This document shows, piece by piece, positions 37,547 through 64,000 of a stretch of 64,000 bases of DNA. Location of the stretch: assembly GCA_019787685.1 (NCBI GenBank), contig JAHNUO010000048.1, positions 1 through 64,000 on the forward strand, given 5' to 3'. Below the pieces are notes generated by a model, which searched no databases, was not told where the DNA came from, and saw only the letters and a list, made by a program, of their open reading frames with translations. Within the stretch, counting starts at the first letter, position 1; each line of letters begins with the position of its first letter. Position numbers and translations under genes: made by a program. This DNA is from Chiua virens (Eukaryota > Basidiomycota > Agaricomycetes > Boletales > Boletaceae).

Positions 37547-37674
37547 GATAGTAGTTGAGAATTAAGAAGTGTGTGAACTTTTTAAAACTCAGACATGCTA
37601 TTTACATGTATATCCTTGTTTGCATTAACAAATAATGACAAATATTAAATGATTTGATTGAGATCCTAATTATC

Positions 37675-41900: not shown

Positions 41901-42131
41901 CTGTAGTAGCGCAGAGAGTAATGCTGAGGAGTAAAGTTGTGAAGTGTATAATTCGCTGTCGGATCAGTGCTCAATGACACTTGATCTGTGTCTCAGAGTC
42001 AAAGTCCATTGGCATAGTGGTCATCCTGATAAGGTTCAGTATAGACAATGCCGCACGGCACAAATGATTGAAACTCAGACATTGGGATTCTCACAATGAA
42101 CTTTGCAGTTTTGGGGTTTCCAAATGGGCTC

Positions 42132-43030
42132 TTATGGGCCCACACATGTAATTGCATTCCCACCCACTGAGCATACATGGGCCTGCCAGTTGCATCCACC
42201 GTGCCCTGTGGGCCCACACATGTGATTCAACTTTCATCCACAATGCATGCATGGGCCCGCCTATCTCATCCAGGTTGTATCCACCATGCCCATGCAGGCC
42301 CACACATGTGATTCAATTTCTATCTGCACAGCATGTGTGGGCCCACATGTCTCATCGATGTTGCAAATACTATGTTCATGTGGGCTCACACATGTGATCG
42401 CATGTCTATTTGCTAAGCACTCATGAGCCCGCACATCTAATCAAGGTTCTGGCTATCATTCCCATGTGGGCCCACCCAGCTGATTGTATTTCCATCTGCC
42501 GAGCACACAAGGGCCCGCACGTCTTATCGAGATTCCATATATTATGCCAGTGCAGGCCCGCACATCCTGGTTTGTATATTGATATGGGCTGCTCGTCTCT
42601 CCTAGGCTCCATTCAACTATCTTTCTGGGCCCGCCGACCTAATGCTCCCGCAGCTGCCATCTGGTCTGTATTTGGATGTGGGCCTGTTTGTACGATCTGT
42701 TTCAATCCAATATGCCTACTTGTCTCTATGTGACCCTGTCTATCTTTGTCTGTGGGCCCGATCATGTGATTGGGATGACGTCCGCTATGCCCTTGTGGGC
42801 CCTTTCATGTTTGCTCACCTGGTCCACATGGATATATGGATTCTATACCCTGTCCCTTGGCGGGTTCCCTTGTCTATAGGTTTGTGGGCTCCTATACACC
42901 ATCTGGGCCCATCTCGTTGAAAACAATTCATACCTCCCCCTGCTCAGGCAGGCCCACCCACATATATATGAGTGCCTTCTGGGCCCACAACAGGTTCTCC
43001 ATGTGCATGGTGATATTGTCAGTCTGGGCT
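42132..43030. repeat. GGGCCC minisatellite, right piece
   Basis: Resumes immediately after the Harbinger TTA with TGGGCCCACACATGT. About seven clear ~84-bp units to roughly 42620, then increasingly diverged (GGGCCC boxes up to about 42985). Confidence 0.85.
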
Positions 43031-43090
43031 GCTCGTGTGCATTGTGATAATGTGACTGCATTATGTGGGTATTTTCTGAAGGTTGGTACA

Positions 43091-43760
43091 TGAAGCTGAA
43101 CGCTATTCCTGACACCACTACCCCCAAGAAGATCTTTGAAAACCTAGTCACAGACTTCTCCACAGTGTTCATACCCACCACCCTAAAGGACAGAGCCTGC
43201 ATGACTTTTCAAGACATATGAATGGAAGGACCTCCCTTCAATGGGAACTTTGATGCCTTCCAGACTGCTTTCCAACTTGAATCCGCCCATAGCAGACTCT
43301 CTGACCAAGGGGTACTCAAGGACCTCCTAAAGTGAGCTATTTCTTCCCGTCTCGCCATAATGATGACAGCCATTCCTGACAAGCCAGAGATGGCTGAGGC
43401 TTGGTTGGCTAAGGCCTCCCAATTTTATCACACCATCATCAAGATGGAATAGCTATGCAAGGGACGACACTTGTACATCTCCTCCACTGCCGTCTCTACC
43501 CCCTCTTGGTCGAGAGACTCTGACGCTATGGACGTTGACTCCATCAGGCTTTCCCCCACTGAATGCACCGAGCACTTGAGGAATAACAAGTGCTTCATTT
43601 GCCATCAGCCTGAATGTTGCTCCACCAACCACAGGAAAAGATCCGGATCGCCCAGGAACGCCACCCCACACTATGCACTGCCACAGTGCCGCCAACAGAC
43701 TATTCATACCTAGAACATGGGAAATTAGAGCTCTATGGTAGTGCAACCACTACCAGGGGA
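43091..43760 (+). pseudogene. gag-like gene of the gypsy element
   Basis: Reads KIFENLVTDFSTVFIPTTLK, EGPPFNGNFDAFQTAFQLES, MTAIPDKPEMAEAWLAKASQ, then NNKCFICHQPECCSTNHRKR, a Cys/His knuckle-like segment. Stops break the frame at DI*MEG (43219-43221), LLK*AISS (about 43333) and KME*LCK (about 43450). Each could come from TGG, CGA or CAG by one transition. Confidence 0.75.
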
Positions 43761-44179
43761 CCCTCTGACCACCTATGTAAAGGCACAAGGACTTAACTCT
43801 GCAGAGGCCCTCAGAATGCTGAAGGTGTGTCTCGAAGAAGACCTTGATGAAGAAGGACATCAGGTCAACCACATTCTGCTTGCGACCAGAATGGGTTTTT
43901 AGATCAAGGGCCTATGCTGGCATGTAGCCCCTCTCATGTCATCTCGCCTGTATTTGTATCCCAAAGAGCCTCTAGAGCAATGCTTATTCCCATTTCACTC
44001 TATGCCCAGGAACAGGGAGAAATCGCCGACACTACCACACTCATAGTGTTACACAAGAGTGTACTGCAACTAGTGACCAACAAGACTTGTCGAGAGCTCA
44101 GGCGGCAATGACTTACCCACACTTTATCTCAAGAAGTATAAGACCTACAGCTCAAGCGCTGAAGGTAATATATCCCAGC

Positions 44180-44775
44180 TGTAGTGCAATACTCAGGGGG
44201 ATTGAAAGAAATAGAAAGAGGGTGAAGGAATGCGATTCCGTTCGACCCAGGGACAACACTGAGTTGGTGAACGACAAATAATGGTTTTTGAGTAGTCCGG
44301 GATGAATCCGGGGCGAATCCGGATTAAAATGGATAGAAAGGCGGACGTGGCAGTCCGATCTGGATCGAGAAAATATGAGGAGAGCGAGAGAAAATGAACG
44401 TCGACCGAAAACGATGTGAGACAGATGCGCACGGGCAAAAGCTACTGTATTTTTGTCAATACAGTGAATTTATAGTCCTTGGGAATACCCTCAGACTTGT
44501 CCTAAGTAAGGATAATGATAAAAGAAGAAGGTTTTCGTACGGTATAAAGTTCAAGAGGCACCCGAATGTCCCTGCAAGGGCTGCATGACATGGTCTAGCC
44601 AATGCTAAGTACGAATAAGGAGCATCAAAAATAAAATAAAAGAGTCTGAGGCAAAACGGGCGCGGATACAGCAATCCGGATGAGTTCGCACATGCAGACA
44701 GATCAGGATCAGGATCGGGTGACGACAGGGTGCGGAAACGTGCTATGCGAGCACAGGGAATACCTATTCCCTACA
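44180..44775. mobile_element. LTR-like insertion in the gypsy remnant
   Basis: Starts TGTAGTGC and ends CCCTACA. Inside it has TTTGTCAATACAGTGAATTTATAGTCC, similar in position and wording to TTTTATAGTCCTGGG in the solo LTR at 36174. No convincing target duplication was seen, so it may be one LTR of a larger broken element that includes the following bases. Confidence 0.4.
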
Positions 44776-45300
44776 GCACAGCAACATCCAGGTTAGGGAA
44801 GAGGGCACTTGTCTGCCAATGCTGAGGATCCTCGACTGTTAGTGAAAGGGCTCACACCAAGGGGAGACCAAGAAGTACGCTGAATTGTGCAGAACTAGTT
44901 AAGGGACATGGAAGTCACAAAGCAACTTATATATGTAAAGACCATGGATATAAAAGGAATCTATCTGGATATAGAAGGCATCCAGAAGGAGAAGCGGTGG
45001 TCCATGTGGTGAGCTATGTATGAATACAGGATGCTACCAAAAAGAGTCATCTGAAAGAGGAAGGTGGAGAGCCACAAGACGAATAAGGAAGCATATGTAA
45101 AAGGCAATGTGGTACTCCTACAGAGTGGATCAGGAATGAATCCGAGGAGCCCATAGAGGAAGGAATCATAGCCACTGATCAGGATTGCTCTTGAACCAGC
45201 TGCCAGTCATCGAAGAAGGAATCAAATGGTTGACATCTGGCCAAGTAAAGTAATTGTCTAAAGAAGGAAACCCATCGTGTAATGGTGTTTTGTAAGGAAG
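44776..45300. other. Unassigned decayed element DNA
   Basis: No stop-free reading frame of note. Short stretches such as GHGSHKATYICKDHGYKRNL on the plus strand hint at retroelement origin, but no family could be named. Confidence 0.4.
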
Positions 45301-45841
45301 AAAAGAAAAAGAAAACATGCCATCTGATTCCTCTAGTGATGTAGCTGATAACCAATCCTCTATGGGAAAATCTGTAACACATAGACTCCAGAGCAACCTG
45401 ATATTTCATAGACATGGGCTTTGCAAAGCGCCATCATTTCCCTGTTACTCAGCTGGAGAAACCCCTTTCTGTCAGCAATGTGGACAGAACCCACAACAAA
45501 GCTGGGGAAATACACTTCAAGGTCAAGGTGACCTTACGCTACTGCAATGTTGAAAATGTTTGAGAACTCTTTATCATAAACTGCAGATCTCAGAACGTCA
45601 TTCTGGGGATCCCCTGGTTGATCAACATCAACCCCACCATTGGCTGGGCCCAAGGATAGGTAACTATTCCCAACAGGGTCGCTGCACTGTGACACAACTT
45701 GCCTATAGTCAAAGCCCAGAGATATCTGGTACACTACTTCAAATACGACCATCAGGACGGTCTCCACTGTCACCTGGAGAAATACTTCTCTATTGCCTTT
45801 CCTGACAACCCATATATCATCAACAAAAGATTACCCTTTCA
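45301..45841 (+). pseudogene. gypsy protease region remnant
   Basis: Contains NVILGIPWLININPTIGWAQ, matching the segment between the aspartic protease and reverse transcriptase of Ty3/gypsy polyproteins (usual form VILGxPWLxxxNP). Stops and frame changes flank it. The protease active-site Asp-Thr/Ser-Gly was not found. Confidence 0.6.
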
Positions 45842-47016
45842 ATGGAGCTCGCTGCTGCCGTGAGAAAGGAGAAACCCAAACTTTCCCCACAATTTGCTGC
45901 CTACTCCTCCATCTTCAAAGAGCCCTCCAACACCTTCATCCCACCCTTGTGTGACTTTGACCATACCATTGACCTCAAGGAGACATTCTCTCCCTGCCGC
46001 ACTAAAGCCTACCCTCTCAACCTGACAGAATGCTCCGCTTGCCTCCACTTTATTGAGGAACATATGAAGAAGGGGACCATTCATCCTTCAAAATCCCCTC
46101 AGGCGGCCCCTTTCTTTGTCAACAAGAAAGACAGCAAGCTACACCCCTGTCAGGACTACTGCTACCTCAATGAGCATACAGTCAAGAACGCATATCCCCT
46201 CCCCCTCATCTCGGATTTAATGGATTGTCTCAAGGACTCCACTATCTTCACCAAGATGGATATCCAATGAAGATTCAACAACATCCACATCAAGGACAGC
46301 AACCAATGGAAGGCTGCCTTCATCACTCCCTTTGGGCTCTTCAAACCCCTCATCATGTTCTTTGGAATGTACAATGGTTCCCTGACCTTCCAGGCCTTCA
46401 TGGATCACATCTTTGGTGACATGATTGTGGAAGGATGGCTGATGATCTACATGGATGATCTTTTAATTCACAGCAATGACCTCACACTCCACAAAGATTG
46501 TACCCGCCGTGTCCTCATGAGAATGCAAGAACACCAGTTACACTTAAAGCTTGAAAAGTGCTCATTTAACATCTCAGATGTTGAGTACCTCGGGATGGTT
46601 ATCAAGGACAGTGTTGTCCAGATGGACCCCACCAAGCTCTCTGCCATTCGTGACTGGGAGAGCCCCATCTCTGTCAGGGAAGTCCAATTGTTCATCAGTT
46701 TCTGCAACTTTTACCGTAAGTTCATTCTGAACTTCTTCGAGATCACCTGCCCCCTCCACGCCCTTACTCAAAAGATGTCTGAGTGGCAATGGGGCCCCAA
46801 ACAGCAATATGCCTTTCAATCCCTCAAGAATTTGTTGCTTTTGAACCTGGTCCTCTACATGCTGGACCCCTCATAGCCTTTCAAGGTCATGACCTCTCTC
46901 ATCGCCTTGGGAGCTGTCTTGATGCAGGCAGACTCCAACAGGGACCTGCATCCCTGTACCTACTTCTCAGAGACATTTTCTCCCGCAGAACACAACTACG
47001 ATATCTACAATTGTAA
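45842..47016 (+). pseudogene. gypsy reverse transcriptase / RNase H remnant
   Basis: The N-part has KPKLSPQFAAYSSIFKEPSN and the finger/palm blocks APFFVNKKDSKLHPCQDYCY, NEHTVKNAYPLPLISDLMDC and FTKMDIQ. A TGA (46268-46270) follows where the family has Trp-Gly (TGG to TGA). The frame continues RFNNIHIKDSNQWKAAFITP, FGMYNGSLTFQAFMDHIFGD and the catalytic MIYMDDLLIHS (YMDD present), then the thumb and SDVEYLGMVIKDSVVQMDPT. After a TAG at 46874-46876, [20 protein letters not shown] and [14 protein letters not shown] are the start of RNase H, where the sequence breaks off at the hAT remnant. Confidence 0.85.
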
Positions 47017-47032
47017 GTAGTAATGTGCAAGG

Positions 47033-48090
47033 CTTGGGCTCAAGCCCTGAGCCCTGCCTGACCTGGCCCCTGAAGCCTGAGCCTGGCCTGGCCCTTCTCA
47101 AGGCCTTATCGGGCTCTGGGCTCGGGCTTCCATTTTGGTTGACCTTTGGCCTGGGCCTAAGCCTGGGCTTGCAACTGTATAGTTAAGTAGCCACCGGACC
47201 CACGGTCTTGGCCAAATATAGCACTTCGCTTGTTCTTACCCCACTCATCCCCATATAGTACAAGCTTGGCATGGAAAATGAAAAGTCTCAACCAAAGCGG
47301 ACTGGGGCTCTGTTGGCTAAACTACATGATCAAGACAATGCAGCCACACCTGAGCTTCGTTCCCACCAACATGCTCCTGATGTGGCAAGCATTTCTGTCC
47401 TCCACAACGACCCAGTAGACCCGACGCACCCCACAGACAAAAGTCCACCACCACTACCCAACCACAAATGCAAGACTGGCCTGTGTGCTAACAATCAATG
47501 TCATGGTCACAATCAAGATTCAAGTGATGGAGATAAGAGTTCACTGCCAAAGGAAGTGGGGTCACACAAATGGTGTATGTTCCACTCGTAATCCTTCTTC
47601 ATTTCACTGACTCTCCATCTATAGTCTCGAAAAGGCATGCCAGAAGGGCCAGAACATCCAATCTGCCACTCAGACCACTTGAGGGGATCACGATGGTGAG
47701 TACCATGACTTTCTTATATTATCTACTAACTCATTGACTTGAAACAGTCCTGACATCTACAATACCACGGGACAACCTACGACATCGACGAGTTTTTCTT
47801 GCCCATTTACCTCGACGATAATGGCAAGAAGCTACATAAATGCAAACTTTGCTCGTAAGTGACTTAATCCAGTGTTTGTAACTCACATTTAACAGATGTT
47901 TAGGATGTGCACACATGTAGTAGCACTTGTCCCAGACATATCCACGTTGCAGCATCATATAGAGTGGCATCACTAGGATGCATACTTAGCCTGGGCAGAA
48001 GCAAATGGATTCAAGTCCATGCTTCCCAAAGACACAAAAGAGTGGAAAGAAAATAGCTCAGGTACCCAGCAGCAAAGCCAGTTGGATACT
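47033..48090 (+). pseudogene. hAT element 5' part with BED-finger transposase start
   Basis: 47033-47185 is a subterminal region of GGGCTC/GGGCCT-type hexamers, usual near hAT ends. The left flank GTAAGTAG and a TTAAGTAG near 47189 leave open that this part is itself a MITE. From 47271 the plus strand encodes MENEKSQPKRTGALLAKLHD.., SRKGMPEGPEHPICHSDHL, then YDIDEFFLPIYLDDNGKKLH and KCKLCS|GTAAGT, then AWAEANGFKSMLPKDTKEWK. This is the N-terminal BED-type zinc finger found on basidiomycete hAT transposases. The catalytic RNase-H-like domain is absent because Helitron D sequence begins at about 48091. Confidence 0.65.
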
Positions 48091-50731
48091 CACCTGCCAC
48101 TGTCCTAACTGAAGGGGAGAATGAAATCCACTCCTATCTTGATGCCAGATACATATCATCCACTCAAGCCTGTCACAACATCTTTGAATTCCCCATGCAT
48201 ATGGAATGGCCCGCTGTCTACCATTTACCTATCCATCTTCCTGGTCATCAGTTTGTGATTTTCCAAGCTGAAGCAGAGATTGAGAATGTGGTCAACAATG
48301 TCAAGGACACTCAACTACTTGGATGGTTCAAAGCCAATGAAGACCCTGACCTCATTGCTGCTGGAGCACATAATCATCTCTATCAAGATTTTCCCAAGCA
48401 TTTCGTTTGGAACAAAGGTTGTGCTGTTTGGATGGTTTGTCAAAGATACAAGGCCATTGGACACATGTACTCTATTTCTCCCTCTGCCGGTGAAGCATTT
48501 TACTTGCGTCTTCTACTCACAGTGATCAAAGGTGAGATAAATCATTATGAGTTTGTGAAATAACATTCATATCTTCTCATTAATAGGTACTACATCCTAT
48601 GAAGATCTTTGTACTGTTGAGGGTCATTTGCATGAGAATTTCAAAGAGGCCTGTCATGCACATGGGCTTTTGCAAGATGACAGGAAATGGCTTTTATGCT
48701 TAGAGGAGGCAGCTCACTTCAAGACAGGCTATCAGCTACACCATTTGTTCATTGTCATTCTGGTCCATTGTTCTCCTGTGGATCCTCATTGATTATGGGA
48801 AGCCTCAAAGGATCATCTATGTAATGACCTTGCACGTCAACTCATTCGTATCTTTAACATCATTGAGCCCAATCAGGAGCAAATCCATTACTATGGGTTG
48901 CATCTCATAGACCAAGAACTCAGAAAACATGGAAAAGAATTGGAAAACTTCCCTTCCATGCCTAGATCACAGAATGACTGGGGCCGTCACAGAGGAAACC
49001 AACTTATCTTTGAACAAAGAAATTACAACAGAGAAGAACAACAAGAACAAGTTGACAGAGGACTTCCCACTCTCAATCCTCAACAGATCACTCTTTATGA
49101 TGCTGTCATAGATAGTGTTCTCAACTCCCATGGATCTTCTTTCTTTCTGCACAGTGGTGGTGGATGTGGAAAGACCTATTTGGCCAAACTTATTGCTGCT
49201 GGTGTTCGTGCAAGAGACATGATTGTTCTTTGTGTGGCCTCTACTGGTCTGGCAGCTCTTCTCCTTCCTGGTGGTCGCATTGCACATTCACATTTCAAAA
49301 TTCCCATTCCCTGTCATGAGCAAAGCACATGTAGCATCAAAAAGAATGATCCCATTCATGAACTTCTCAAAGACACCTCTCTTATCATTTGGGATGAGGC
49401 AGCCTCTTAGCATCATTTCATTGTGGAGACTGTGGATCGTACTCTTCATGACCTGTTGGATCAGCCCAACCATCCATTTGGAGGAATTACAATTCTATTC
49501 AGTGGAGATTTCAGGCAAACACTTCCTGTTATCTTACATGGCTCAAGAGAACAAATCATCCCAGCCACTCTTACCCACTCCAATCTATGGCCAAGAATGA
49601 ACATTCATTATCTTCACCAAAACATGCGTCTAGGTCAAGATCCAGAGTCTGATGAATGGGCCCAACAACTATTGCAGATAGGTGTAAAAGATGGAGATAT
49701 GATGCTTCCCGAGCACATGCGTTGTGGCAACACTATGGCATCCCTTATCAATGCCCTTTACTCCCAACTTCTCACCCAAGATGAGCACCTTCCTGATCAA
49801 TATTTTCTGGATTGTACCATTCTCAGTCCCAGGAATGAACAAGTCCATGAAGTCAATGCCACCATTCTAGGCTCTGTTGCACCTCAGGAAAAGCTCACAT
49901 ACCTCAGTGCAGACTCTGTGACAGAGCCACAATACGAGTACATCCAACCAAAAGTCCTCAATACCTTTAGCCCCTCTAGATTTCCCCTTCACAAGCTGGA
50001 GCTTAAAACTAGAGCACCACTCATGCTGTTGCGCAATCAGGATCCCATGAATGGTCTTTGCAATGGTACTCGCTTGAGGCTCCTCAGGTCTACTTGCCGG
50101 ATTCTGGAGTGTAGAGTGTTAGGTGGAGATAATGCCAACAATGTGGTCTTCATTCCCCGCATGGCCCTTGACTCTGGCCTTCAAGATTCTCCCATTCCTT
50201 TCTGTTGTCTGCAATTTCCTGTTCATCTAGCCTATGCCATGACAATCAATAAATCACAAGGTCAGACAGTCAAGCATGTTGGGTTGAATTTGAGCTCTTC
50301 TGTTTTCTCTCATGGACAACTTTATGTTGCTTTGTCATGTTGTACTCATCCCAGAAACATAAAAATTCTTTTTCCTCATGGTCAAGAAAATTCAAAAGCT
50401 ACCAATGTTGTTTGGACTGAAGTATTTAGAACTTTGAACATTCGATATACACCTCTTCAAATTTCGATACTATAATCTTTGTACTTATTGGCTGTGTACT
50501 TATATCTCCAATGTACACCTTACATAAAACCAAGAATTTACATTGTCCCCACCATTTGAACCTTCAATTGAACCTGCTTATGTCTCACTACAATGTGACT
50601 ACAAATTCGACTACACGAGTCTACATCTGATTTTTGTGCAAATACTCAAATGAAACCATGCTGATAATTTACCTGGACTCAGACGATCTCAGACTACTAC
50701 TACAAACAAACAAAAATAATGTTTTACTTGA
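48091..50731 (+). mobile_element. Helitron D: 5'-truncated, inverted relative of B
   Basis: The only Helitron coding copy on the plus strand. Similarity to B starts in the middle of the Rep exon (GCCACTGTCCTAACTGAAGG) and ends at GTTTTACTTGAA, just before the terminal junction module of B, so both ends of the element are missing. Most differences from B that I could read are C-to-T or G-to-A. Confidence 0.88.
48112..50475 (+). pseudogene. Helitron D Rep C-terminus and helicase, two stops
   Basis: The Rep remainder (NEIHSYLDARYISSTQACHN to LTVIKGEINHYE) is followed by an intron (about 48530-48586) and the helicase exon. TGA at 48790-48792 replaces CGA of B (DPH*LWEAS), and TAG at 49408-49410 replaces CAG (DEAAS*HHF). 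The helicase otherwise keeps HSGGGCGKTYLAKL, ILFSGDFRQTLPV and MTINKSQGQTV. The Arg in the last motif has become Cys (VALSCCTHP; VALSRCTHP in B). Confidence 0.9.
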
Positions 50732-50988
50732 ATATTGCCACCTTTGCATTGACACAAGACTGCCACAACATGTGCCAGTTACCCAACTTCCCTCAACCCT
50801 TCCTGGATTTTAATTTCACTCGGGTATCTTTGTTGTACTGTTGATCATAAATTTGACTACTTGAGTCTACATTTGAATGTTGTACATACTTGAATACTCA
50901 AATAAAATAAAACCTTGCTCATAATTTCCGTTGACTCAGATAATCCACTACCTACTCAACTTTACAACCCCCCAAAAAATAACCTTAA
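50732..50988 (+). mobile_element. Satellite monomer piece and satellite-type Helitron 3' end
   Basis: 50740-50812 resembles one 158-bp satellite monomer end in inverted orientation relative to S2 (CAGTTACCCAACTTCCCTCA, CCCTTCCTGGATTTTAATTTCAC). 50812-50988 is the plus-strand S-type 3' tail, nearly identical to 29354-29531. Confidence 0.7.
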
Positions 50989-52664
50989 GAGGCAACGACG
51001 AGGGTGAAATGCCTCATGGGCTTGTTAATATCTTTCAGGCCATACAATGAAGACAGACATATGTGAGAATTTCACCCATGGTGAACATGCTAAGAGACAG
51101 AAATGTCGCAGACCTGGCACGAGCGGGAATGTATAAAAACAAGCACCAAATATTCGGACCACACGCAATTGATAGAATATGTATATAGTCGAGACTCGAG
51201 ACTCACCCACGTAAAAAGTGAGGTATTATGTGAAAATCATATCAGTCAGTGGTAAATATGTGCATGCATGGGCGCATCCCCGCCTGTGTCGGGGATGCGG
51301 CCATCTATGTACAACTTACACATACAGATGAGGCAACAAATTGGAATAATGGTGCGTAAAATGGTGTACATGCACCATGGTCAGAACATATGAGGCACAA
51401 ATCCCACCACCTGCGGGAATCCATGCATGAAAGAGAAAAACCCATAATATATGGTTATCTGTCATGATGAATATCAGATATGATATCTGAGTCGCTACTT
51501 CAAATTGTTGTCCACTAAATATAATACACCTGATAGATAGTGTGACGACGTATCAGATATACCTTGGTATCTCTGACAATACAGATATTGTGTCTGCTTG
51601 GATTTGCACATTTATGTGAAAGCTGAGTAGGCGACTTGATAGCACTGATATGATATGTTTCTCAAAACGGTGTTTGATGTCCATCTTTGACATTTGTGGT
51701 ATAATATGTCTTGTGTGCAGTTGACATACATATGTACGTGATACCATGTGTGTCTGAGAATAAACCATGTCGTATGTGATGGTTCAAACTATAATAATAA
51801 AAATCCATCCATCAGTGATCCCCATGACATAAAATGGCGTTGTTTGATAGAGTGTGGTTATCTAAATCACATGGACTTTGCGGATCTTTCAAACATGACA
51901 CATATAGATGTACGCAATCCCGCATATGGCGGGTATGCGAGTAATAAATGAACGAACAATTATGTCATTAGATAGCCGCATTTGCGTCTGTGGCGGGTAT
52001 GCGATGTTTCGGGACAATGACTCAGTATTGCGATGTACAATTACAACACAAACGAGCAATGGGAAATAAAGTGACATTCAATATCGCATTGCCGCCATGT
52101 GTGGGAATGCGGACAAAAGATGTACAGTTACAACACAATCGAGCAATGTGGAATAAAATGACATTCAACATCACATTGCCGCCATGTGTGGGAATGCGTG
52201 ACAAAATGTGTCAATATTCAATATCGCATTCCCGCTATGTGTGGGAATGCGGACAATATGTGTCAAATATGTGTCCGCATTCCCACACATAGCGTGAATG
52301 CGATATTGAATGTCATGTTATTCCCCGTTGCTCCTTTGTGTTGTAACTGTACATCACAATACTGAGTCATTCATTCATTGTCTCGAAACATCGCACACCC
52401 GCCACAGACGCAAATGCGGCTGTCTAATGACATCATTAATCATTCGTTTATCTACTCGCATACCCGCCATACGCGGGAATGCGTACATATATACATCTCA
52501 TCTTATGAAAGATCCGCAAATTCTATGTGATTTGGATGACTACACTCTAGGAAATATATATTCCACACTTGATGACATGGTAGATTTGCGGCTTTGGGGT
52601 GTGAATTTGTAGGTCTTACCTCTGTCTAACCCCCTCTGAATTAGATTAGATCCCTTTAAATTGA
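50989..52664 (+). mobile_element. Palindromic hairpin element P2
   Basis: Second copy of P1, nearly identical throughout, starting at the GAGGC..GCCTC junction (50989-51015) and ending at CCCTTTAAATT. It carries an extra ACATACATATGTACGTGATAC near 51724 (absent from P1). The central hairpin arms have diverged slightly. The DNA beyond 52664 is unrelated to that beyond 31165. Confidence 0.75.
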
Positions 52665-52922
52665 GTTGTGGCTCATGTTGATCCTGTGTTGTTATTTGCA
52701 TGGGATGAATAGTAAACAACAGACGAGCCTCTTTCAAGGTCTCCCGCTTGCCGCTCATGACAAAGCTATCCAGATCTGAAATACCTGTGAGCCAAAAGAA
52801 GCGAGTCCGCGATATTTAAACGCACATTCATCACGAAGACAGTTATTGTCTACAGACTCTATGCGTAAAGTGTGCCTTCAAGAACGTTAGTTCATTAGAA
52901 TCAAACATCATCGTGGAAAAGC
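52665..52922. other. Spacer
   Basis: No gene or repeat recognised. It is probably the former 3' flank of the next gene. Confidence 0.4.
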
Positions 52923-55280
52923 CTACAGGGAACCACAAAGCTGGGATTGAGAATTCACCATCAGAATCAGAGAACGACCAACACAAAGATCTTGTTTCAT
53001 GGGGTAATCTACTTCGAAGTTTGGCTGCTCCTGCATACCCTCTTGTTGTATACAAGGAAGAGAATCGAAGAGAACCCGACAGATCTTATCAACAATACTC
53101 TCAAGATATTCCTGAGCCTGATCCCTTGCGGCTGCGATAGCGTCCTGCAGTGCAGGCATGGTAGACTTGAGGTGCTCAAGGTCTGCGGTGAAATCTGGGT
53201 CACTGGCGAGAGAAACCTCGTTTCTACTTTCTCTAAGTATCTCCCAAATACTCCGTCTGTCAATGACCGTCGATTTAGTTGAAGGGTTGGCTTGCATCGC
53301 GATCTCGTGGTGAATAGTGGCCAGAGTGGAATGAAACTTCTTGTTGCCATCATTGAGAACCGAATGAGTGAGTCTAGTTAGCTGACTCCCGCTTTTGATT
53401 CCGAGTCTTTTGGATAAGTGAAGGACACGGAGGATCTTCTCCTTCGACTTCCTGAAAATTTCCTCGTTTATGTTCGTACAGTCGGCTTTACAAACTTCAT
53501 CAGCGATATTCGCCGCGAGTTGCGAGTGGATTGTTGTCAGTTTGGAATAGGATTCTGGGACATGATATCAGCACCAGCACGAAATAACTACATGAGGGCT
53601 GACGACTTCGTCTAAATTTGTCGTCTGGGGCAAGAGTTGAGACAGACATGAAGCATCGGCTACGGTCGAGCATACTATAAGTACCTACCGGAATGAGTAA
53701 GGACCCAGAGGAAAGAGAAAATGGAACGAACGGATAGTGGGAAAATATAGCATCAGTAACTGCGAACCGAATGCTCATTTCCGTCTGTGTTCTAGCTTCG
53801 TTTACTTCAGTATTGATATTCTTTTACTGGACCCCTATGTCATTCTGGCACCCAGATTTGAGGACTGTAAATGCTTCCGTCCATGCACTACAGGCGTCAG
53901 GGAAACGCTTCTTGAACCCCAAGCGCACGAGGTAGTCGAGTGATTTGGGACTGATGGATTCCGAATTTGTAGACATTCATTCGTCCTGCAAGAAGTCAAT
54001 GAGGCATAAGGACAGACTTGGCCAAAATCGCTACAAAGCATCTTGTAGAAGAGGTGTGCTGATTTTGAAGGAGTTGAAAGCCTTGACAGAGTGCCTAGTT
54101 GGCACGTACTTCGTCGTCATGAATCCTTGTCTCGTTTCGCCTGGCAACAGGCGGGGCTTGAGTGACTCAGGGTCCTTATTACACCATGGATGCCCTCCAG
54201 ATACGAAGAGTTCATCGGAGGTGCACTGAAAAGTCACGTGTTCTACATGGACTGAAACATGACATCAAGCTAACATACCTCAAATCCTCGACAAATAAAG
54301 ACAAGTCCCTTAGGTTTCTTCATTTCAGATACCTTGGAAATTGGATTCGCATTGCCCCCAGAGATCAGGGCTGTAACTTGATCATAAAGCTTTGTCAGGT
54401 ATCTACGAAACCAAGTTCGTGCGTGCGAGAAATGCGTTCACAATGTCCTCACCACATGAAAATAAAACAATTTTGTCGCACCAATGGGAAAGCATCATCA
54501 TCCCATGTTGAATCTTCTGGCCAATAGATGACATACATCTTTTCCACTGCACCACCAGAATCTGAAACACAGCATATGTATAAGCCTGAGCGGAGAGGTA
54601 GTCTTTTAACTCCATCGCTATTGAAGTCTCAGACACAATACGTGAAGCATGGGCTGGATACACGCATACCTGGTGTTGTCAATGACTGCGATGGAGACCA
54701 AAAAGCGAATAATCTCTGCTTTACTGCCATAAATCCCAATGGGCTTGATTTAGAACTTGTCGAGTGCCCCGAAGTCGACCTTGGTCAAGGACAAGCAAAC
54801 ACCGGGAGATATCTCATCCAGGAAGCGCCAAAAAGAGTCTTGGGCAACGACGACCTTGTCGACTTCGCGAATGTCAGAACCGACATAAGACATTGTGATG
54901 GATCATACCCGGTTCACTGGCACTATGCTCGCGGATTAAGTCAAGGATGCAATACATTCCTGGGACGGATACCAAAGAAAGATCCTCTTCAGGTTGAGGT
55001 TGTGAGTGTCCCTCAATGCTGCCCTACGTACAATATAGAACAGGATTATAAGCGCATATTTAGGTATCATCATGAGTAGATATGGAATGCTCACCTCTTG
55101 TCCTTCAACACTGAGGTATGAAGAATTGGAGTCTGACACACACACGGAGACATCCAAAAGACTTATTTCATGTGCGCGGTGCGTTGGAATGAGATACGCA
55201 TCCTGATCTCCGAGAGAGGTCGGGTCAATACCGATATATAAAGGATCCAACTCCAAGTCCGAGATGGTCGTCATGTGCAT
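52923..55280 (-). pseudogene. Broken multi-exon host-like gene, family unknown
   Basis: Starts MHMTTISDLELDPLYIGIDP, continues AHEISLLDVSVCVSDSNSSY, then by plausible GT..AG introns GSIEGHSQPQPEEDLSLVSV, PGMYCILDLIREHSASEP, VDKVVVAQDSFWRFLDEISP and KVDFGALDKF. Here TAA (54751-54749) interrupts the frame, which continues IKPIGIYGSKAEIIRFLVSI. Later pieces are MELKDYLSAQAYTYAV, EKMYVIYWPEDSTWDDDAFP, YLVRLGFKKRFPDACSAWTE and a long helical end (NINEEIFRKSKEKILRVLHL, STKSTVIDRRSIWEILRESR, QEYLESIVDKICRVLFDSLP). I recognise the style of basidiomycete-specific proteins but no named family. Divergent to TDP1. Confidence 0.55.
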
Positions 55281-55390
55281 GCATGGCCTGGGCCAGTCGA
55301 AGTCCCACCGGATGTGTCTATCAGAGTCGAACTCGCTGATAGTGTGGGATGCCCAGTTGTGGGAAAAATCTTAACCAATCCATCGCGTGG

Positions 55391-55927
55391 ACACAACAGA
55401 TTTTGGGATATTTGGGATAGGTTTCAATGTGAAGCTTTATGTCAATCCAATATTTAAAATTTAGTTCAACATATCCACCGTGTCAAAACTTAGAATATAG
55501 ATGCACTTTAAAATCTTTGCCAGTACTTCAAGTATTCACGCAAGTGTTGCCAACAATCTATATTGTTGGCTATATTTGGGATATGTACAAACAATAAAAC
55601 TGATTCCCATATTTGAAGTTAAAACTAGAATATCGCACATAGAACTGGCTTATATGCAGGTACAGGCCAAACCATACACTGTATTTGCATATAAACCAGT
55701 TCTATATGTGATTTTTATTGTTCACACATATCTCAAATATAGCCAACAATATAGATTATTGGCAACACTTACGTGAATACTTGAAGTACTGGCAAAGATT
55801 TTAAAGTACATCTTTATTCTAAGTTTTGACACACTGGCAGTGGGTATGTCGAACTAAATTTTAAATATTGGATTGACATAAAGTTTCGCATTGAAACCTA
55901 TCCCAAATATCCCAAAATCCGTTGTGT
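55391..55927. mobile_element. 537-bp fold-back MITE
   Basis: Terminal inverted repeats of about 250 bp beginning ACACAACRGATTTTGGGATA, then TTTGGGATAGGTTTCAATG. The two arms match closely with a few substitutions and a short GCCAGTG difference. There is no coding region and no clear target duplication (GTGG / GAAT flanks). It occupies most of the 760-bp space between the divergent starts at 55280 and 56040. Confidence 0.85.
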
Positions 55928-56039
55928 GAATAGGTCTTCGCAGAAGAAGCAAGCTTAGTCAGACACGCACCACCACAGACTATAGATACTTTGTCTAGAA
56001 GCTCAAACCTAGTACTTTAGGACAATAGCTCCGAGCTTG

Positions 56040-58470
56040 ATGGAAGCGCAGGAACACTCGCTTGATACTGGTAGCAGTGGCACCGGACACCAAAACGACA
56101 GCCATGACATAGATGCTTCAAACGATGAAGACCAACAGTTCCAGAAAGATCTTCAGCGCGCTATAGAGGCATCTAAAACCGAGTCTCAGAAACAGTGTAC
56201 CACTGTTCCAATACAGAGAATCCAAACCGCTCAGGGCGCACAGACAACTTTTCTCTCTGAACGTGCACAACTGGAGAAAGAGAGGTTAGCTAGACTCAAA
56301 CGCTATCGCGGAGAAAGCGATGATCACGAAACTTCCGAGGAGCGGTTACTTCAACCACCCATGAAGCGGCCGCATCTCTCGTCTGTTGAACCAACTGATT
56401 GCAGATTAAAGAAGCTCCAGTCGATGTCCTCTAGATGTAATAGCTCGTCAAGTTTGAGCATACACGGAGCGTCCGGTTCAAATACCGCTGTGATACATTC
56501 AGATCCTGTTATTGATCAACTATTCTGGGACGGTGAACTCCACCCGACTGCAAACAAGCATTCACTCCCAAGAGAAGACGGAAAGGCAACTTTCAGGTTA
56601 TCTGAAGTATTAGGTCCTGTGCGTATCCAGTGATGCATTCTTCTTCCGTGATGATCATAATTTTTCCCTCAAGAAAGCTGATATCTCGCTTGCCATCATC
56701 TCCTCCTACTCTACGTCTGTCTCCTGGATCTATGAGTTTTTTGATCCACGTACACCTGTCATTATTGTTACCCAGCCTGATTCCTCCGGACAAGCCACTG
56801 TCAAAAATGTCCTTCCCCACTGGATAATGACCGTCCCATTCCTCAGAAATGGTTATGGTTGTCAACATATGAAAGTGCGTCTTGCGATTATTGCCCTTGT
56901 GTGCTCTACATATTCACATTGTTTCCTCTAGTTCATGCTGGTAGGTTGATTGTTTCCGTCTGTTGGGATACTCACTGATGCTCACTATTTCTTTCTTCGT
57001 AAGATCTTCTACAGAAGTGGACGTCTCCGGGTTGCAGTATCCACTGTAAATCTTATAGACTACGATTGGCGTGATGTTGAGAATGTCAGTCGCTCGACTC
57101 ACTTCATTTCCACGTGGTTTTGACGTTTTATAGGCTATATGGGTGCAAGACATTCCCCTACGTTCAAACCCTGTAGTCCACGAACTGAAAGTAGCGGACG
57201 ACTTTCCATTTATTATGCAAAGGATCTTGCATGCAATCAATGTCCGTCCTGCGTTGTCAAACATGCTAGTGAATGATGTGTGTGTAAACCCTCGTATTTG
57301 GTCCTGCCCTTATGACGTTCGTAGCATCCCAACCTCCCCCTCCGTTCAATGGAGGACCTTCATTCCAAATGGGATTTCTCCAAGGTTGTCGTCAAACTCA
57401 TTCCATCCATAGCAGGAAAACACGAAGGATGGGCAGCAGGTGTGCAGACAGGTCACACTCACCTCATGAAAGCTGTGCGCGATCTTGGTTTGCGGACCGG
57501 AAAAGGCAAGTCTGCGAGGGAGTTGGTCCTGGAATGTCAGGTACGTTCGCACATGTTTCGCTGTGACCAACGGCTGATTGGGTAGCGAATAGGGTTCGAG
57601 TACCGGAACATATTCTACGCAGTGGATGAATGAATTTCATTGGTCTGCACGTGGTGAATCTGCAGAGGATTGGCTCGACGAACCCAAAACTCGCCGATCT
57701 AAGCTCCCATGGCCGCCCGTAAAGGTCATTTTCCCAAACGTCAAAACAGTCGGGGCTAGCGTTTTGGGTGAACCTGTGCGTGGAACATATCCGTTGCTGC
57801 TCTTCCTGTACTTGAAATGTGCCGTTTGACAGGGAGGTGGAACCATGTTCTGTCGAATGAAGCAATGGGAAGGAACAAAATTTCCTAGGGAATTGTTTCA
57901 TGACTCGAATAGCACGGGCGGTCGCGTGCTGATGCACACCAAGGTTTGATTCACTTGCAGTGCGTCAATACTTTATTAACTCATAAGTTGCAACCTCGTA
58001 GATGATGGTTGCAACCTTCCGCCGAACTTCACCATTCGCAAGTATTTCTAAATCCGATACCAAAAGCAAATCTACGCATCCAAGTGCTTCAGACAGCGGC
58101 AAATCTAAGGTTGTTGTCATCTCCGACAGTGAAACAGAGTCAGACAGTGATGTGGAAGAGTGCGCACTAGAAGCACAGAAGGAGGCCATAGGCTGGGCGT
58201 ATGTTGGTTCCCACAACTTCACGCCTTCAGCCTGGGGAACATTGTCCGGTTCTGCATTCAATCCGACGATGAATGTAGGTTTTGTGTCAAGTACTTGTGT
58301 TCGGTTTCACCTTTGTTACGTAATGTTCCAACGTTCAGACGGACGATGACACATGCCAGGCGCAGGTGTGGCGTTCCTTGTCAACACAAACTGACGCGTC
58401 GCAACCTAGCTATCCAAAGGAGATGATGACGACGACGACGGAGGCGGCGGTGGCGGTTGGTGACCTTTGA
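56040..58470 (+). CDS. TDP1: Tyrosyl-DNA phosphodiesterase 1
   Basis: Hydrolyses the phosphotyrosyl bond linking stalled topoisomerase I to DNA 3' ends, in the nucleus. Ten exons in phase 0: 56040-56618, 56674-56874, 56932-56940 (9 nt), 57004-57084, 57134-57277, 57325-57540, 57593-57775, 57833-57943, 58002-58274, 58339-58470, giving 642 residues. Both HxK-N sites are present: GYGCQHMK then FML with STVNLIDYDW, and GGRVLMHTK with VGSHNFTPSAWG. The N-part has a UIM-like acidic helix (EDQQFQKDLQRAIEASK). The final exon (TDDDTCQAQVWRSLSTQTD..) does not resemble the usual C-terminal strand blocks of the family, so the tail may be lost or replaced. Start: the ATG at 56040 is the first in frame. Confidence 0.9.
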
Positions 58471-61400
58471 CAGCAATCCACTTGTCCTTGGCTGTCGTCT
58501 GTTGTTGTTCCTTGGCGTCAGACGTGGCGCCGGCAGGTTTATCCGGTGACGTCATACTCTCCTCCGTGTCGGCTTCGATACCGCCGTTGCTGGTGTCCGA
58601 CTCCGAGGATGACACGGATTCAGAGTGAACAACGGGGATGACTGCGTCAGCGGGAGTGCTGCTTGCAGGGGCGGCGGTGGCACCTTCGAGTTTCATTACT
58701 GTCTCGGCACGGTGGGCCTTCTTAGATTTCGCTCGATTCCTTTTCTCGAGCTTCTGTACATGGTGCGAGTCACGTTGGGTCAGAAAAGGGATCATGAAAA
58801 CAGTGAGAAAACAAGGAAATGTTTGCGCTAACCTCTCTCGTCTCCCTCTCGTTTTGCTAGATTCAGAAAGTAGATCAACACAACTGGGTCGGGTCAAGGA
58901 AACGTTTTGAATTTACCTCCTTGGCGGCCTTCTCTTCCTTCTGCGGAGCATTGTCAACAAAGACTGGAACTGGCATATAGGATGGACGGTTACCTCTGCG
59001 TTCTCTTTCTTCCGCCAGCTAACCACGTTGCCAATCAGTCAGCGTGGTGATTGGGTTTAAAGCATCGCTGCATACCTCCTTCTTTTCCTTTGCCTCACGC
59101 TGTGGCCACGTCAGCCATTTCGAGTTGACAGTTTGCAATGAGTAGAGACATACCTCAGCCTTTTCCTTCTTGAGTTTTTCGCGTGTCTCACGTTCTTGAA
59201 TGATCCTGGGAGGTGGTTGTCAGCCACCTTTCGGAAATGTTCGGATGTCAACAGACCAATCGCCAACTTCGTCTACACATTCCCTTGGACGAACTTTATT
59301 CTTCAAGAGGTATCCTTGCAAGGCCGCCACCTGCGATAACTTGGGTGCCAGGGAAGGGAACCTAAATGACAAATGGAGACCCACGCTAAGTTCGCCCTCG
59401 GGAATGGCGTCAGCAAACCTCTTGGCAAGCTCCGCAATCTCAGCCTCTTCAAGCACGGGAATGGCATGCCCGGGTCCACGTTTTGGCAGAGGGAGATTCT
59501 TCTGCGACACGTCAATCTTCTCCTGTGATGTGGACGACGGCGATGCAGCTGGCTTGGAAGGGAAGAAACATTTGAAGATACCCTCTGCTTGCCACTTTGT
59601 CGCGTGGGTAAAGTTCACCCAGACATCCATGCGACCCGGACGGCTGAGGGCCGGATCGAGACGCTCAATATGGTTGGTGGTGGCAAACAGCAGGCTTTAG
59701 ATGAAGGGGTGTGAACATCAGCAAAAAACCCGCAGCCCAGCTGTTCCGGACACAACTCACCGGCCCTCTGCCGCAGCTACTCCGTCAAGGCTGTTCAACA
59801 GGCCACTCAAACTAAGGGTCGAGCCATCATTTGCATCATTACTGTTGGGCGTTGATGGAGACGGTGCGGGTGCCCCAGTGGATGATGAATCACGACTGAC
59901 GGAGCGCGTGAAAGCAGCATCCAGATCTTCTATGGATGTTTCTGGAATCCGCGTTTTAACGAGGATATGCCCATCATCCAATCCTGTCAATATGGGGAGC
60001 CTGTTTCGACGCGCGACGTGAGTGTACTGATTCAAAAGATGCGTACTGTTATAATCGAGAGAGATGGACCAAACGCACCATTGCTTTGTCAAAGAATACC
60101 TGCACCAGCTCTGGATGGTATCTCCAATATGAACGAGCTCAAAGAACTGTAAGAGCGGTGAGACGCTCGTCGTGTCTTGATGTTCCGCAGGCTTGTATGA
60201 TGACATGCGCTCAGTCGCGCTACGGCAGAGGCTTCAGCGACGAGGAAGAGCGAGGAGGGAGTGATGGACTGGACTGACATTCCAAATCCCCACGAGATAT
60301 GCCCCGCCCCAAGGGCACTCAACAACTCGCAAAAAGCCTCGTCAAGCGTCTCGCGCACGCGCGTTCCCGTCGCACCAGGGTACACGGCGAATGTCTCGAG
60401 GCGTTTTATTGGATCTCGGGCGGTGTGGATGAACTGCAGCGAGACGCCGAGTGAAAGTAACAGGTCGAGAGCCTCACCGGATGTCGACGTGCACGGACCA
60501 CTAGATGGCGTGGTGGAAGCGCGCAATGCCTTCACCATGGATCCCTGAACATCTTTGGTAGACGTCATTTTCGTACTCACAACGTCCGACGTCGAGCTGG
60601 TTCGCTTGGATAAACCGATATCAGAAACCTCGTTCTCGTGGGCCCGACTTTCTGCAAGGTCGCCCCATCCAGCTTCGTCTTCCACACCAACGCGGTCACT
60701 TCCTTCTCTGTCCCCTTCTGCATGTGCGTCTTCGTCTTCATCCTCGCACACCTCAAACAGCGTCCCATCCTTTCCAAAGCTCTCATGCCCATTTTCTGCG
60801 GGTGAATCCATCTCTGGGGCCAAACCGACGCCGGGAACACCATTTCCTCCCCACCGTTGGGGATTTAACATTGAAATTCCCTGAACGACGCCCGTGCCCA
60901 CGGCTCCGACCCCAGTTCCGATTGCGGCGCCCATACCCATACCGATGGCATCCACAACATCCACGCCAGCACCAACAGCACGCGGGACAACAGTAACGGG
61001 GAGGAGAAGCATGTCAGTAAAGGACGCGAGTACGTTGCGTTTCATTTGTGCGGGATTTTGAGAGTCGAGGAAGCGTGTCTGGGGTTGAGAGGCTTGTGTT
61101 TGAGAGTTTGATCGACCATCGAGCGCCATCTTGTGCTAAGAGGAGTGAGAAGGGACAGCAGAGAGACAAAATTAAGAGTGAATATTCACCTTCGAGGATG
61201 TCGTGATCGAGACGGAACGTTCCCAGTCCTTGCAGATCAGTTCAAACGCACGTTTGAGTTCCTCCATCTCATCATCGAGGTAGTCGTCCATGTTGGGTTC
61301 AAACATTTTATAGCTGTTATTTGTGGTAGGAGCTGTGTCGCAGAGTAGGATAGGACGGATACGCACATGATGTCCTCGGGTTGCTCCACTTTGACTGCTC

Positions 61401-62077
61401 TTACCTCGCCCTCGCGTCCTCCGCTATGTCGAGCATCTGACCGCCGCTCACGTATTCGAAGACCATGTAGTAATGATGTTGATGGATGATCATTTCGCGC
61501 ATGCCGCAGATATAGGGATGGTGGAGAAGCATGGATAAAGCAGCCTCGCGGATCGTTCTGATTTCCTTGGAGGCATCCTTGGAGGCCTGCTTTGCGATAG
61601 CCTCTGGAGAAGCGTTTGAGCCGTTGGGGAGAGATGTAGAAGGGTGAACGCGGGGAAGGATTTTTATAGCGAGCTAGAAGACAAAACAAGACGGGGAGGA
61701 TAAGTGGGGGCGTGCAAGGTGTTGTGAAGAGGATGCACCTTTTCTTCCGTGACATTATGAATCGCGAGCTTGACTTTACCCATGCTGCCTGCGCCGAGGG
61801 TCTTGGTGAGGGTATAGTCGCCGAGGACTCTGTTTGCGGTGCGAGACTGTTTGGAAGTGGAGCCATCCTTGTGCTGGCGGTGCTTCTGGTCGGACATGAG
61901 CTGTTTGTCGCGATCCGACGAGCTGGTCTGAGGGGAGCTGTAGGACTGCGGGGGCATAGAGAGAGGTCGAGGTCTGGGGTTGACCCATGGCCTCGCGGCA
62001 GGTGCGGGGAGAGGCGTGGGGTGGTTGAGGTGGGTGTTGGGGAAAGAGAATATGTGATGCTGTGATGTCCCCACCAT
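58406..62077 (-). CDS. KIN1 - recyclin - BCS1 chimeric gene, open when spliced
   Basis: Eleven exons (62077-61739, 61673-61405, 61313-61190, 61135-60279, 60219-59761, 59694-59257, 59205-59154, 59099-59076, 59018-58994, 58933-58917, 58753-58406) give 2,952 nt, 983 residues, no internal stop. Residues 1-195 are the start of a KIN1/MARK-type Ser/Thr kinase (glycine loop [32 protein letters not shown]), ending at GGQMLD before HRD and DFG. About 196-568 are recyclin ([60 protein letters not shown]). A 59-residue linker follows. About 628-983 are the BCS1-like AAA end ([50 protein letters not shown]) and a charged tail. Each donor part lacks essential pieces (no kinase catalytic loop, no F-box, no Walker A). 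Exon boundaries are inferred. Confidence 0.7.
60089..60120 (-). other. Recyclin breakpoint with old frame visible
   Basis: After HIGDTIQS the minus strand reads [10 protein letters not shown] in the next frame, the recyclin continuation (usual MVQVYFDKE), so one base was lost here. The new frame instead runs open into the BCS1 part. An alternative intron GTATTC..AACAG (about 60099-60048) would also keep the frame. Confidence 0.6.
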
Positions 62078-62495
62078 TTTCTTCGGGAACTCGTCCCAAC
62101 ACCATCGCGACTGGCCCTGGGTAGAACGTTGTCATCGTCGTAGGCGATCCCCGCCCGCTTACTAAGAACTCTCCCTCAATGGCAGTGCGGTCTCAACTGA
62201 GTAAATCCGTCTTCAGGGCCGTTGAGCCTTCCCAGAAATAACCCTACTCAGATCTCTCTCGCGACCATGCGTCTTACGAGTCGCCGGGTCATCATTCTCC
62301 CCTGAAATTGGACCGCTCTGTAGTCTTTACCCAAGACCCACTGGCAGTACCGCAGCCCAGAATGGATCCCTTGCTGCGCCCACGTCAAACACTGAAGCCA
62401 TAGAGCGCAGTCAGACTAGGCTGATACGGTCTGAAGCCAGATCCCTCACATGTTCGTGTGCGTCTCTGTTATGACGCTGAACCACCGGTTCGATC
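62078..62495. promoter_or_regulatory. Divergent promoter region
   Basis: 418 bp between the kinase ATG (minus) and the regulator ATG (plus). No TATA box was clear to me. It presumably holds both promoters, one of them formerly the KIN1 promoter. Confidence 0.5.
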
Positions 62496-64000
62496 ATGTC
62501 TTCTGCCGAGGAGGATTACAACGACCTCGAAAACTCGTCCACGGTCACCCCCAATAGCAAGAAATGGCGGGTTCAACGAGCATGCGATACATGTCGCCGC
62601 AAGAAGAGTGCGTCTTTCTCTTCGCGTTGGAATCAAGAGGGTCACTCATGACAGTTTCATATAACTCGGTCGGGGTAACCAGTTCGATGTAAGCGGTCTC
62701 TCTCGACGGCACTCGAGTATGCTGATATAGGCGTTCAGGCGATGTGAGTCAGATGCCGGGAAATCGTTGTTCCAATTGTATCGTGTATAGTTTCGAGTGT
62801 ACGTACGTGGAGGCTACCAATGTGGGTCCCCTCCGTGCTCTCCGGTCGCTTCATATCCACGGCTCACCTGACACCAGAAGCGTGGGTCCTCCAAAAGGGT
62901 GCGTCACTTGTTGAGATGTGTCACGCGTTACGCCTTCTCATGCTCCCCAGATACATCGAATCACTCGAGAATCGTCTGGAGAAAAAGGAAAGGCTTCTCC
63001 AAAAGGTAGGGCATTCGATTGCATGGGGGTGAGGCTCGTGCCAATGACGTGTTACTGCCAAGGTCCGTCCGGATGCGTTTCTCGCAAGAGCTGGGCGGTG
63101 GTGTCCGAATAGACCGGGAGATGTGGCAGAAAGGGAACGCATCCGCCAACGCGGGCCAGACAATGAACGCCGCGGGGTATGGCAGCGCGAGTGCTCCAAT
63201 GGACAACCTCGTCCTGAGCGACGACGAGGACATCATGACCCTTCGGCTCTCGGCGAGTTTCAAGTCGATGAATTTAGTGCCCCGTCGGCGTGCACGCTTC
63301 TTTGGCAAGTCGAGCGGTGTCATACTCATTCAGAAAGCGATCGGTCTTAAAAAGGAAGCAACCGGTGCGGACGAGGGTGACCCGATCATATTTCGCCCGG
63401 TCGACGACGACTGCTATCCGGTCCGTCCTTTTTTCTCTTGTGCACACCTGTCTTGATCACACCCTCAACAGTGGGAACTCGCCGCGAGAACGATCGCGGA
63501 ACCAGAGACACGTTCCCCGACAACGGTCTCGGCTTGGGCCTTGTCCATCTTTATTTCGTGCACATCAATCCTTTGTCGCCGTTTTTGCATCGTCCGAGTT
63601 TTGAGCGCCAGGTCCGGCAGGGCGTGCATTCGCGCAACTCGTCATTCGGCGCCGTCTATCTTCTCGTCGGTGCATGCGCATTGCGTTACTCGGACGACAC
63701 GCGCGTCTTTCTCGATTTCGTCGAGAGCGGCATTCACGAACACTCGGCGGGATGGAAGTATTTCGAGCAAGTACAGATGGTCAGGAGGACGTTGCTCGGA
63801 CCGCCCTGTTCGGAGGACTTGCAGACCTATAATGCATGTGTATTTGTCTTTGTGCCGACAGGACTTATAGTCACAGTTGTCTGTCCAATTCTTGCAAGGG
63901 ACGTCGGCGCCGCAGGCGTGCTGGACGATCGTCGGGATAGGTATTCGACTGGCACAGGATGTGGGTGCGCATCGGCGCAAATCGTACAACGAGAAGAACT
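62496..64000 (+). pseudogene. Zn2Cys6 transcription factor, 5' part, apparent frameshifts
   Basis: Starts MSSAEEDYNDLENSSTVTPN. The binuclear zinc cluster RACDTCRRKK-IRC-DVSQMPGNRCSNC-IVYSFEC fits C-x2-C-x6-C-x9-C-x2-C-x6-C only if a 6-nt exon TTCGAT (62683-62688) lies between introns 62608-62682 and 62689-62738. The linker and coiled coil follow (GPPKG, YIESLENRLEKKERLLQK). The regulatory domain shows ARFFGKSSGVILIQKAIGLK, LHRPSFERQVRQGVHSRNSS, VYLLVGACALRYSDD and GIGIRLAQDVGAHRR up to the window edge. Frame is lost near 63077 (RPDA | FSQELGG) and near 63513 (ETR | FPDNGLG), so the gene is probably decayed, unless these are assembly errors. The family activates metabolic genes. The target here is unknown. 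Confidence 0.75.

Follow-up and report, generated by a model that had tools for sequence, protein, structure and literature searches.

Helitrons of maize and Pack-MULEs of rice form chimeras of gene fragments in which introns are kept, the parent genes remain intact elsewhere and reading frames are occasionally open. Mosaic segmental duplications, and B or accessory chromosomes made of core-chromosome material, are patchworks of pieces of several loci set among repeats. Regarding fungi, the transduplication by a hAT element in Pyrenophora tritici-repentis is termed, in extracts of the report, the first transduplication by DNA elements in this group (PMC3538342). Extracts of the report on the Helitrons of Pleurotus ostreatus describe no capture of host gene fragments, and copies that carry extra genes after the helicase (PMC4289320). 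For Fusarium, the excerpted parts of the Helitron study describe non-canonical ends, list 27 putative capture events and give no evidence of an important role for capture (PMC5148889), and accessory chromosomes are described in Tremella in the available part of a further report (PMC13066641).

The locus described here is a mosaic of gene pieces in Chiua virens, a bolete of the family Boletaceae, and includes a chimera of KIN1, recyclin (RCY1) and BCS1 fragments. The window is the stretch of 64,000 nucleotides at positions 1 to 64000 of contig JAHNUO010000048.1 (C48; the other C numbers are contigs of the same genome). As in the maize and rice systems, pieces of several genes stand side by side, their introns are kept, their parents are intact elsewhere and a frame can be open; in those systems the two ends of an element enclose the pieces, whereas no enclosing ends were found at C48. 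In the Pyrenophora case, too, a fungus has duplicated gene material and a frame that is chimeric, but that case, as far as the extracts go, concerns one gene within a defined TIR element with many near-identical copies, whereas C48 has many donors and two or three copies (PMC3538342). Compared with the Pleurotus Helitrons of the extracts, host fragments at C48 abut a Helitron-family end, on its outside (PMC4289320). A multi-locus patchwork among repeats is a likeness to mosaic segmental duplications and, on the available part of the Tremella report, to accessory chromosomes (PMC13066641). No report of this locus was found in the literature, nor, among titles and the openings of abstracts, of a multi-donor gene-fragment mosaic in a bolete.

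Donor loci and joins of the mosaic

Positions 57900-62700 of the window were used as the query against the genome (48.3 Mb in 136 contigs). The pieces are as follows.

52660 to 58315, no strand assigned: piece of a locus on C31 (C31:57808-62944), 93-94% identity
about 55387 to 55932: foldback insertion inside the C31-derived piece, self-complementary at 82% over 55391-55927, present in C48 and C23, absent from C31
58322 to 59930, minus strand: 3' piece of BCS1, residues ~306-658 of 658 (tblastn), 98% identity to C8:1790108-1791724
59930 to 59981, no strand assigned: 52-bp filler, a copy of C37:234832-234883 (also on C7 and C1), 96% identity over 52 bases
59982 to 61427, minus strand: middle piece of recyclin (RCY1), residues ~431-847 of 1048 (tblastn), 97% identity to C37:239385-240831 and to C7
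61428 to 62469, minus strand: KIN1 piece with the 5' region and first exons, ending within the kinase N-lobe, 97% identity (gaps aside) to C56:102797-103980 and to C62
62473 to 64000, plus strand: piece of a transcription-factor-like gene from C5:74947-77403, 96% identity, running on past the window to C48:64921

Five donor loci thus supply pieces that are set end to end over 52.66-64.9 kb of C48, in the order, rightward from 52660, of the C31 piece, BCS1 (C8), the 52-bp filler, recyclin (C37/C7), KIN1 (C56/C62) and the C5 piece. The KIN1, recyclin and BCS1 fragments lie on the minus strand at the places given by the original prediction, with the introns and splice signals of all three donors kept, and the exon at 60219-59761 which it described exists. 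A retrocopy was ruled out, as the introns of all three donors are kept.

The KIN1 piece differs from C56, of which C62 is a near-twin, at 28 of 1042 sites, the recyclin piece from C37 at 46 of 1446 and the BCS1 piece from C8 at 36 of 1605. The kinase piece, which corresponds to positions 34-90 of the 263 of the PF00069 profile (30.3 bits, under the cut-off of 31.7), is without the catalytic part. The BCS1 piece contains neither the BCS1_N domain nor the Walker A stretch; the donor protein has GVPGSGKT, which we take to be the Walker A motif. In the C5 piece, Fungal_trans scored 19.9 bits, under the cut-off of 23. The intact genes that the original prediction would look for elsewhere in the genome were found at the donors, recyclin and BCS1 at full length and KIN1 with both halves of its kinase domain (on C56). 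The recyclin of C37 matches residues 1-1048 of the Boletus edulis protein, and that of C7 is likewise full length, save one or two residues between matched pieces; for BCS1 on C8, residues 1-525 and 541-658 of 658 were matched, and the gap falls in the micro-exon region. Identity is 98.5% between C37 and C7 (over 9.9 kb) and again between C56 and C62 (over 8.5 kb), and both pairs are probably haplotypes. Within 10 kb around the BCS1 donor, the copied 1.6 kb alone recurs at length (on C23 and C48); apart from it, C17 has a 75-bp match at 99%, and two matches of some 127 bp reach 72-75%. Such copying is therefore not everywhere, as judged from one donor locus and not from a random control.

Further copies from the donor loci were seen away from C48. 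A separate recyclin fragment (residues ~98-452) at C63:58042-59319 and on C47, with 93% identity to C37:240712-241996, is a second duplication of the recyclin gene. C1:3459580-3465582 is a 6-kb copy, at 93%, of C37:233001-239045, beside the recyclin donor. The match on C17 (C17:75427-75501) is a copy of C8:1789116-1789190 in the BCS1 donor locus, short and filler-like.

No bases are shared at the recyclin-KIN1 join or at the filler-recyclin join, one base is shared at the BCS1-filler join, the KIN1-C5 join has a 3-bp insert, and at the C31-BCS1 join a few bases match neither piece. These join types rest on the joins of the chimera, those aligned to donors ending left of 64.9 kb. In the donor, 4.5 kb separate the source of the filler from that of the recyclin piece, with order and orientation unchanged, so that filler and recyclin could both stem from a single 6-kb donor stretch that lost internal sequence, or from two template contacts near each other. 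The three gene pieces of the chimera are copied from intact loci elsewhere, and the joins are near-blunt with a templated filler, as would be expected of segments joined by DNA repair.

The mosaic extends beyond these pieces. Past 64921, the search listing gave matches to C29 (93%), C1 (90%), C14 (91%) and C12 (86%), continuing to at least 72000, the end of the query; an open frame at 69904-70755 of C48 carries part of an EPSP synthase domain. To the left of the mosaic lie a C26-like piece (91-93%) with transposons inside and a repeat with a 5'-truncated Helitron helicase.

Copies on C23 and C22 and the adjoining Helitron repeat

Two larger features extend leftward from the mosaic.

31173 to 64000 and on to C48:64388, no strand assigned: block shared with C23:105045-135940, 97-99% identity piece by piece
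42032 to 52661, plus strand: repeat with a 5'-truncated Helitron helicase (48095-50732), PIF1 helicase domain within 49411-50475

The C23 copy is without 2.3 kb directly after the helicase repeat. A third contig, C22, matches C23:138013-132370 at 97% over C22:130452-136112, and its KIN1 joins are identical. The KIN1-recyclin and KIN1-C5 joins are therefore present on three contigs, the recyclin-filler-BCS1 and BCS1-C31 joins on two, with sequence differences of 1-3% between the join-bearing copies. On C22 the KIN1 and recyclin frames are open to their ends, recyclin being cut at 478 bases. The C5 piece on C23 breaks at 135940 and is followed first by 41 bp that match C3 and then by a stretch of a dispersed repeat, about 33 bp long. 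From 136114 rightward C22 matches C25 (98% over 3.9 kb); considered as an empty site for C22, C25 was matched on the right side only, its next 6.3 kb having no match to C22:120001-136113. On either side, the blocks on C48 and C23 have different flanks in the stretches compared, and the two may be alleles, separate loci or products of one segmental duplication. C23:136216-137801 resembles the first 495 bases of C9 and C50, plus a repeat on C43, C9, C32 and C127, and is possibly subtelomeric; TTAGGG runs of at least two units were not found in the stretches searched.

The right end of the helicase-bearing repeat (..CCCTTTAAA) is common to all nine places aligned (two in C48, two in C11, and one each in C23, C36, C10, C47 and C32), a lower bound, 40 of the 92 candidates having been scored. 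The next base is T in seven places and A in two, and the left ends of the copies differ where compared. C36, which had been considered as a donor, was rejected as such, being another copy of the repeat. The hairpin near the common right end is weak, and the scan of four copies for canonical Helitron ends (5'-TC, 3'-CTRR with hairpin) gave no convincing CTRR end; nor was an inverted copy of the common right end of at least 12 bases found in the stretches searched. In both C48 and C23 the mosaic starts directly after the right end at 52661, an adjacency that fits read-through capture and equally a repeat inserted beside the mosaic or joined to it. The gene pieces sit outside this end, and no outer Helitron end enclosing them was found at the joins read; an end-bypass unit may enclose them.

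The rest of the window is rich in mobile elements. Three Helitron-like elements stand in tandem order on the minus strand (3600-9199, 11464-16825 and 22425-27968), all three with PIF1 helicase domains; the one tested for Helitron_like_N carries that domain in the frame 13346-15013. Between two of them lies a tandem array (17791-22050; 26.7 copies of units of about 157 bp, 66% matches). An element of about 1.35 kb with 224-bp inverted ends (36544-37898) has at least about 30 near copies in the genome, and a reverse-transcriptase fragment (46271-46873; RVT_1, 59 bits) lies within the helicase-bearing repeat.

The reading frame and its possible constraint

Three features of the minus strand bear on the long frame.

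61313 to 61405, minus strand: cryptic donor ..GAG/GTAAGA (exon end 61405) and native recyclin acceptor (exon start 61313), both required by the long frame
60001 to 60078, minus strand: 78-bp native recyclin intron, the splicing of which does not affect the frame; spliced in the public C23 model (by eye)
58941 to 58993, minus strand: BCS1 intron, which the long frame has to retain so as to pass a 2-bp deletion in the micro-exon before it; the public C23 model likewise keeps it (by eye)

From the ATG at 62077 a long frame can indeed be drawn, of 993 codons in 12 exons if 58993-58941 stays exon, or, with the 78-bp recyclin intron spliced too, of 967 codons in 13 exons (for the latter figure the 78 bases were removed about six bases off the native intron 60078-60001, the frame being unchanged); exactly 983 residues in eleven exons, as originally predicted, were not obtained. 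Native splice sites keep the donor frames open across the copied parts. The proposal that both breakpoints keep frame was not confirmed. The KIN1-recyclin join is open only by way of the cryptic donor; this donor sits within a recyclin exon and its use removes a stop, and when the native donor is used instead the frame stops at residue 204. If the cryptic donor is combined with the splice sites of the donor genes, the 2-bp deletion in the BCS1 micro-exon brings the frame to an end at residue 871. What had been taken for a 59-residue linker is recyclin read out of frame after a 1-bp deletion, followed by the 78-bp intron and the 52-bp filler from the recyclin donor region. Both deletions, that of 1 bp which shifts the end of the recyclin piece and that of 2 bp which shifts the micro-exon, are common to C48 and C23; in the C23 copy, recyclin moreover contains a TAG and KIN1 has lost 1 bp. 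Read from an ATG at 62105, the KIN1 5' deletions of C48 give a stop at residue 110; their interpretation as a frameshift was dropped, as a KIN1 start at 61957 would place them in the 5' UTR.

The best protein match to the chimera was Chiua virens JVU11DRAFT_10854, a public gene model that covers recyclin and BCS1 in the C23 copy. It starts directly after the in-frame TAG, with the 78-bp intron spliced and the BCS1 intron left in (by eye), and its start and this unspliced intron hide the frame breaks of that copy. Among the best 120 of 868 matches, no protein of another species covered more than 48% of the fusion. None of the 56 coding substitutions makes a stop, an outcome to which a neutral model gives P = 0.31, so that the open frame of C48 is not clearly above chance.

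In the donor frames, C48 and C23 are separated by 27 synonymous and 23 nonsynonymous differences. Their coding divergence (50/2814) is like the noncoding one (21/1263), and noncoding CpG sites differ about four times as often as other sites. The nonsynonymous share between the two copies was 23 of 50, compared with 67.5% expected (p = 0.002); for the whole chimera lineage, donor-lineage changes included, it was 40 of 87 (p = 5e-5), for changes private to C48 10 of 22 (p = 0.038) and for those private to the broken C23 copy 11 of 22 (p = 0.11). The adjoining transcription-factor piece served as a control, with 17 nonsynonymous among 25 differences between C48 and C23 (dN/dS 0.61; 0.39 for C48-C22 and 0.46 for C23-C22), and the comparison of chimera and control gave p = 0.09. 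Of the seven deletions private to C48, six are noncoding (p = 0.011), provided that KIN1 starts at 61957; these six all fall in a stretch of about 300 bp in the KIN1 5' region and may not be independent. The seventh, inside coding sequence, is in frame. The few amino-acid changes and the mostly noncoding deletions point, weakly, toward what may be some constraint on these sequences; the signs are judged weak because the broken C23 copy behaves alike and conversion from unsampled donor alleles could mimic them. Where the two donor alleles sampled for recyclin disagree, C48 and C23 mostly match each other (by eye), so that these alleles give no sign of gene conversion.

Origin and meaning of the mosaic

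Both the fragments and the joins between them are real and recent. The locus is read, with a probability of roughly 0.7, as a gene-fragment chimera that arose by end-joining or template switching in a transposon-rich island and is not maintained as a gene. Copied pieces of three separate full-length genes and of at least two further loci abut base to base, and they would have been joined by end-joining and template switching during the repair of broken DNA, a step suggested by the joins only, that is, by the blunt joins, the 3-bp insert and the short templated fillers (52 bp here; 41 and 33 bp on C23). The finished mosaic would then have been copied and re-broken. The long frame would be a by-product of coding pieces on the same strand, one frame-changing deletion, the cryptic donor and the retained intron. 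A transcript from the KIN1 5' region carried along is conceivable; judging from the missing sequence, its product would have neither kinase catalysis nor BCS1 nucleotide binding, so that no selected function would be expected. What reads as an in-frame gene most likely came about by chance when coding pieces were put together.

Helitron capture or shuffling, which the original prediction held conceivable, would here take the form of a non-canonical Helitron that read past its own end at 52661 and took downstream gene pieces stepwise, with C48, C23 and C22 as products. The nine places with one common right end, the start of the mosaic right after it in C48 and C23, and the helicase repeat and mosaic that these two share between flanks that differ in the stretches compared all argue for it; with a Helitron-family end abutting the mosaic, the transposon may have made the mosaic. 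This origin is nonetheless unlikely, as the chimera lies outside the common end with no enclosing element or outer end found at the joins read, more donors follow past 64.9 kb, C22 has the KIN1 joins with no helicase in the common part and no Helitron end at its right edge, and the blocks on C48 and C23 may reflect alleles or a single segmental duplication; in the extracts cited above, the Pleurotus Helitrons are moreover without capture of host gene fragments (PMC4289320). An ancestral KIN1-RCY1-BCS1 neighbourhood reduced by two deletions, which had been proposed as another source, would account for three pieces on one strand, but the donors are on different contigs, so that the pieces are not remnants of one neighbourhood, and pieces of other loci adjoin the chimera on both sides; the positions of the donors refute this proposal. 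Misassembly, named originally as what would refute the chimera, is very unlikely, because the joins recur on C23 and partly on C22 with sequence differences between the copies.

The newborn fusion gene of the original prediction stands as a recent fusion of three host genes and not as an in-frame gene, for which non-native splicing is required and of which the C23 copy is broken. That C48 nevertheless holds a functional fusion gene, one that selection would maintain and that the KIN1 5' region would drive, appears a little more doubtful than Helitron capture. The frame of 967-993 codons, the nonsynonymous deficit, the mostly noncoding private deletions with the single coding one in frame, and the public gene model for the recyclin-BCS1 part of the C23 copy are consistent with such a gene. 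The frame, however, relies on a cryptic donor and a retained intron and is not open with native splice sites; it is not kept in the sister copy, which, though broken, has a similar nonsynonymous share; an open frame is compatible with chance; the catalytic parts are missing; and among the best matches no protein of another species covers most of the fusion. Helitron capture and a functional fusion are not mutually exclusive. Their combination, in which a non-canonical Helitron family gathers multi-donor gene pieces beyond its own end and spreads the mosaic while the C48 fusion is starting to be kept by selection, is improbable to a slightly greater degree than either; if true, it would mean that new multi-gene reading frames arise in growing islands of a mushroom genome.

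On the preferred reading of a repair-joined chimera, the donors and joins, resolved to the base, show how a plausible three-gene frame arises without a demonstrated gene, and the public gene model of the sister copy (JVU11DRAFT_10854) should be treated with care. The island is a more interesting object than the fusion frame, and it would permit a direct test of Helitrons versus break repair as builders of multi-donor gene mosaics in fungi.
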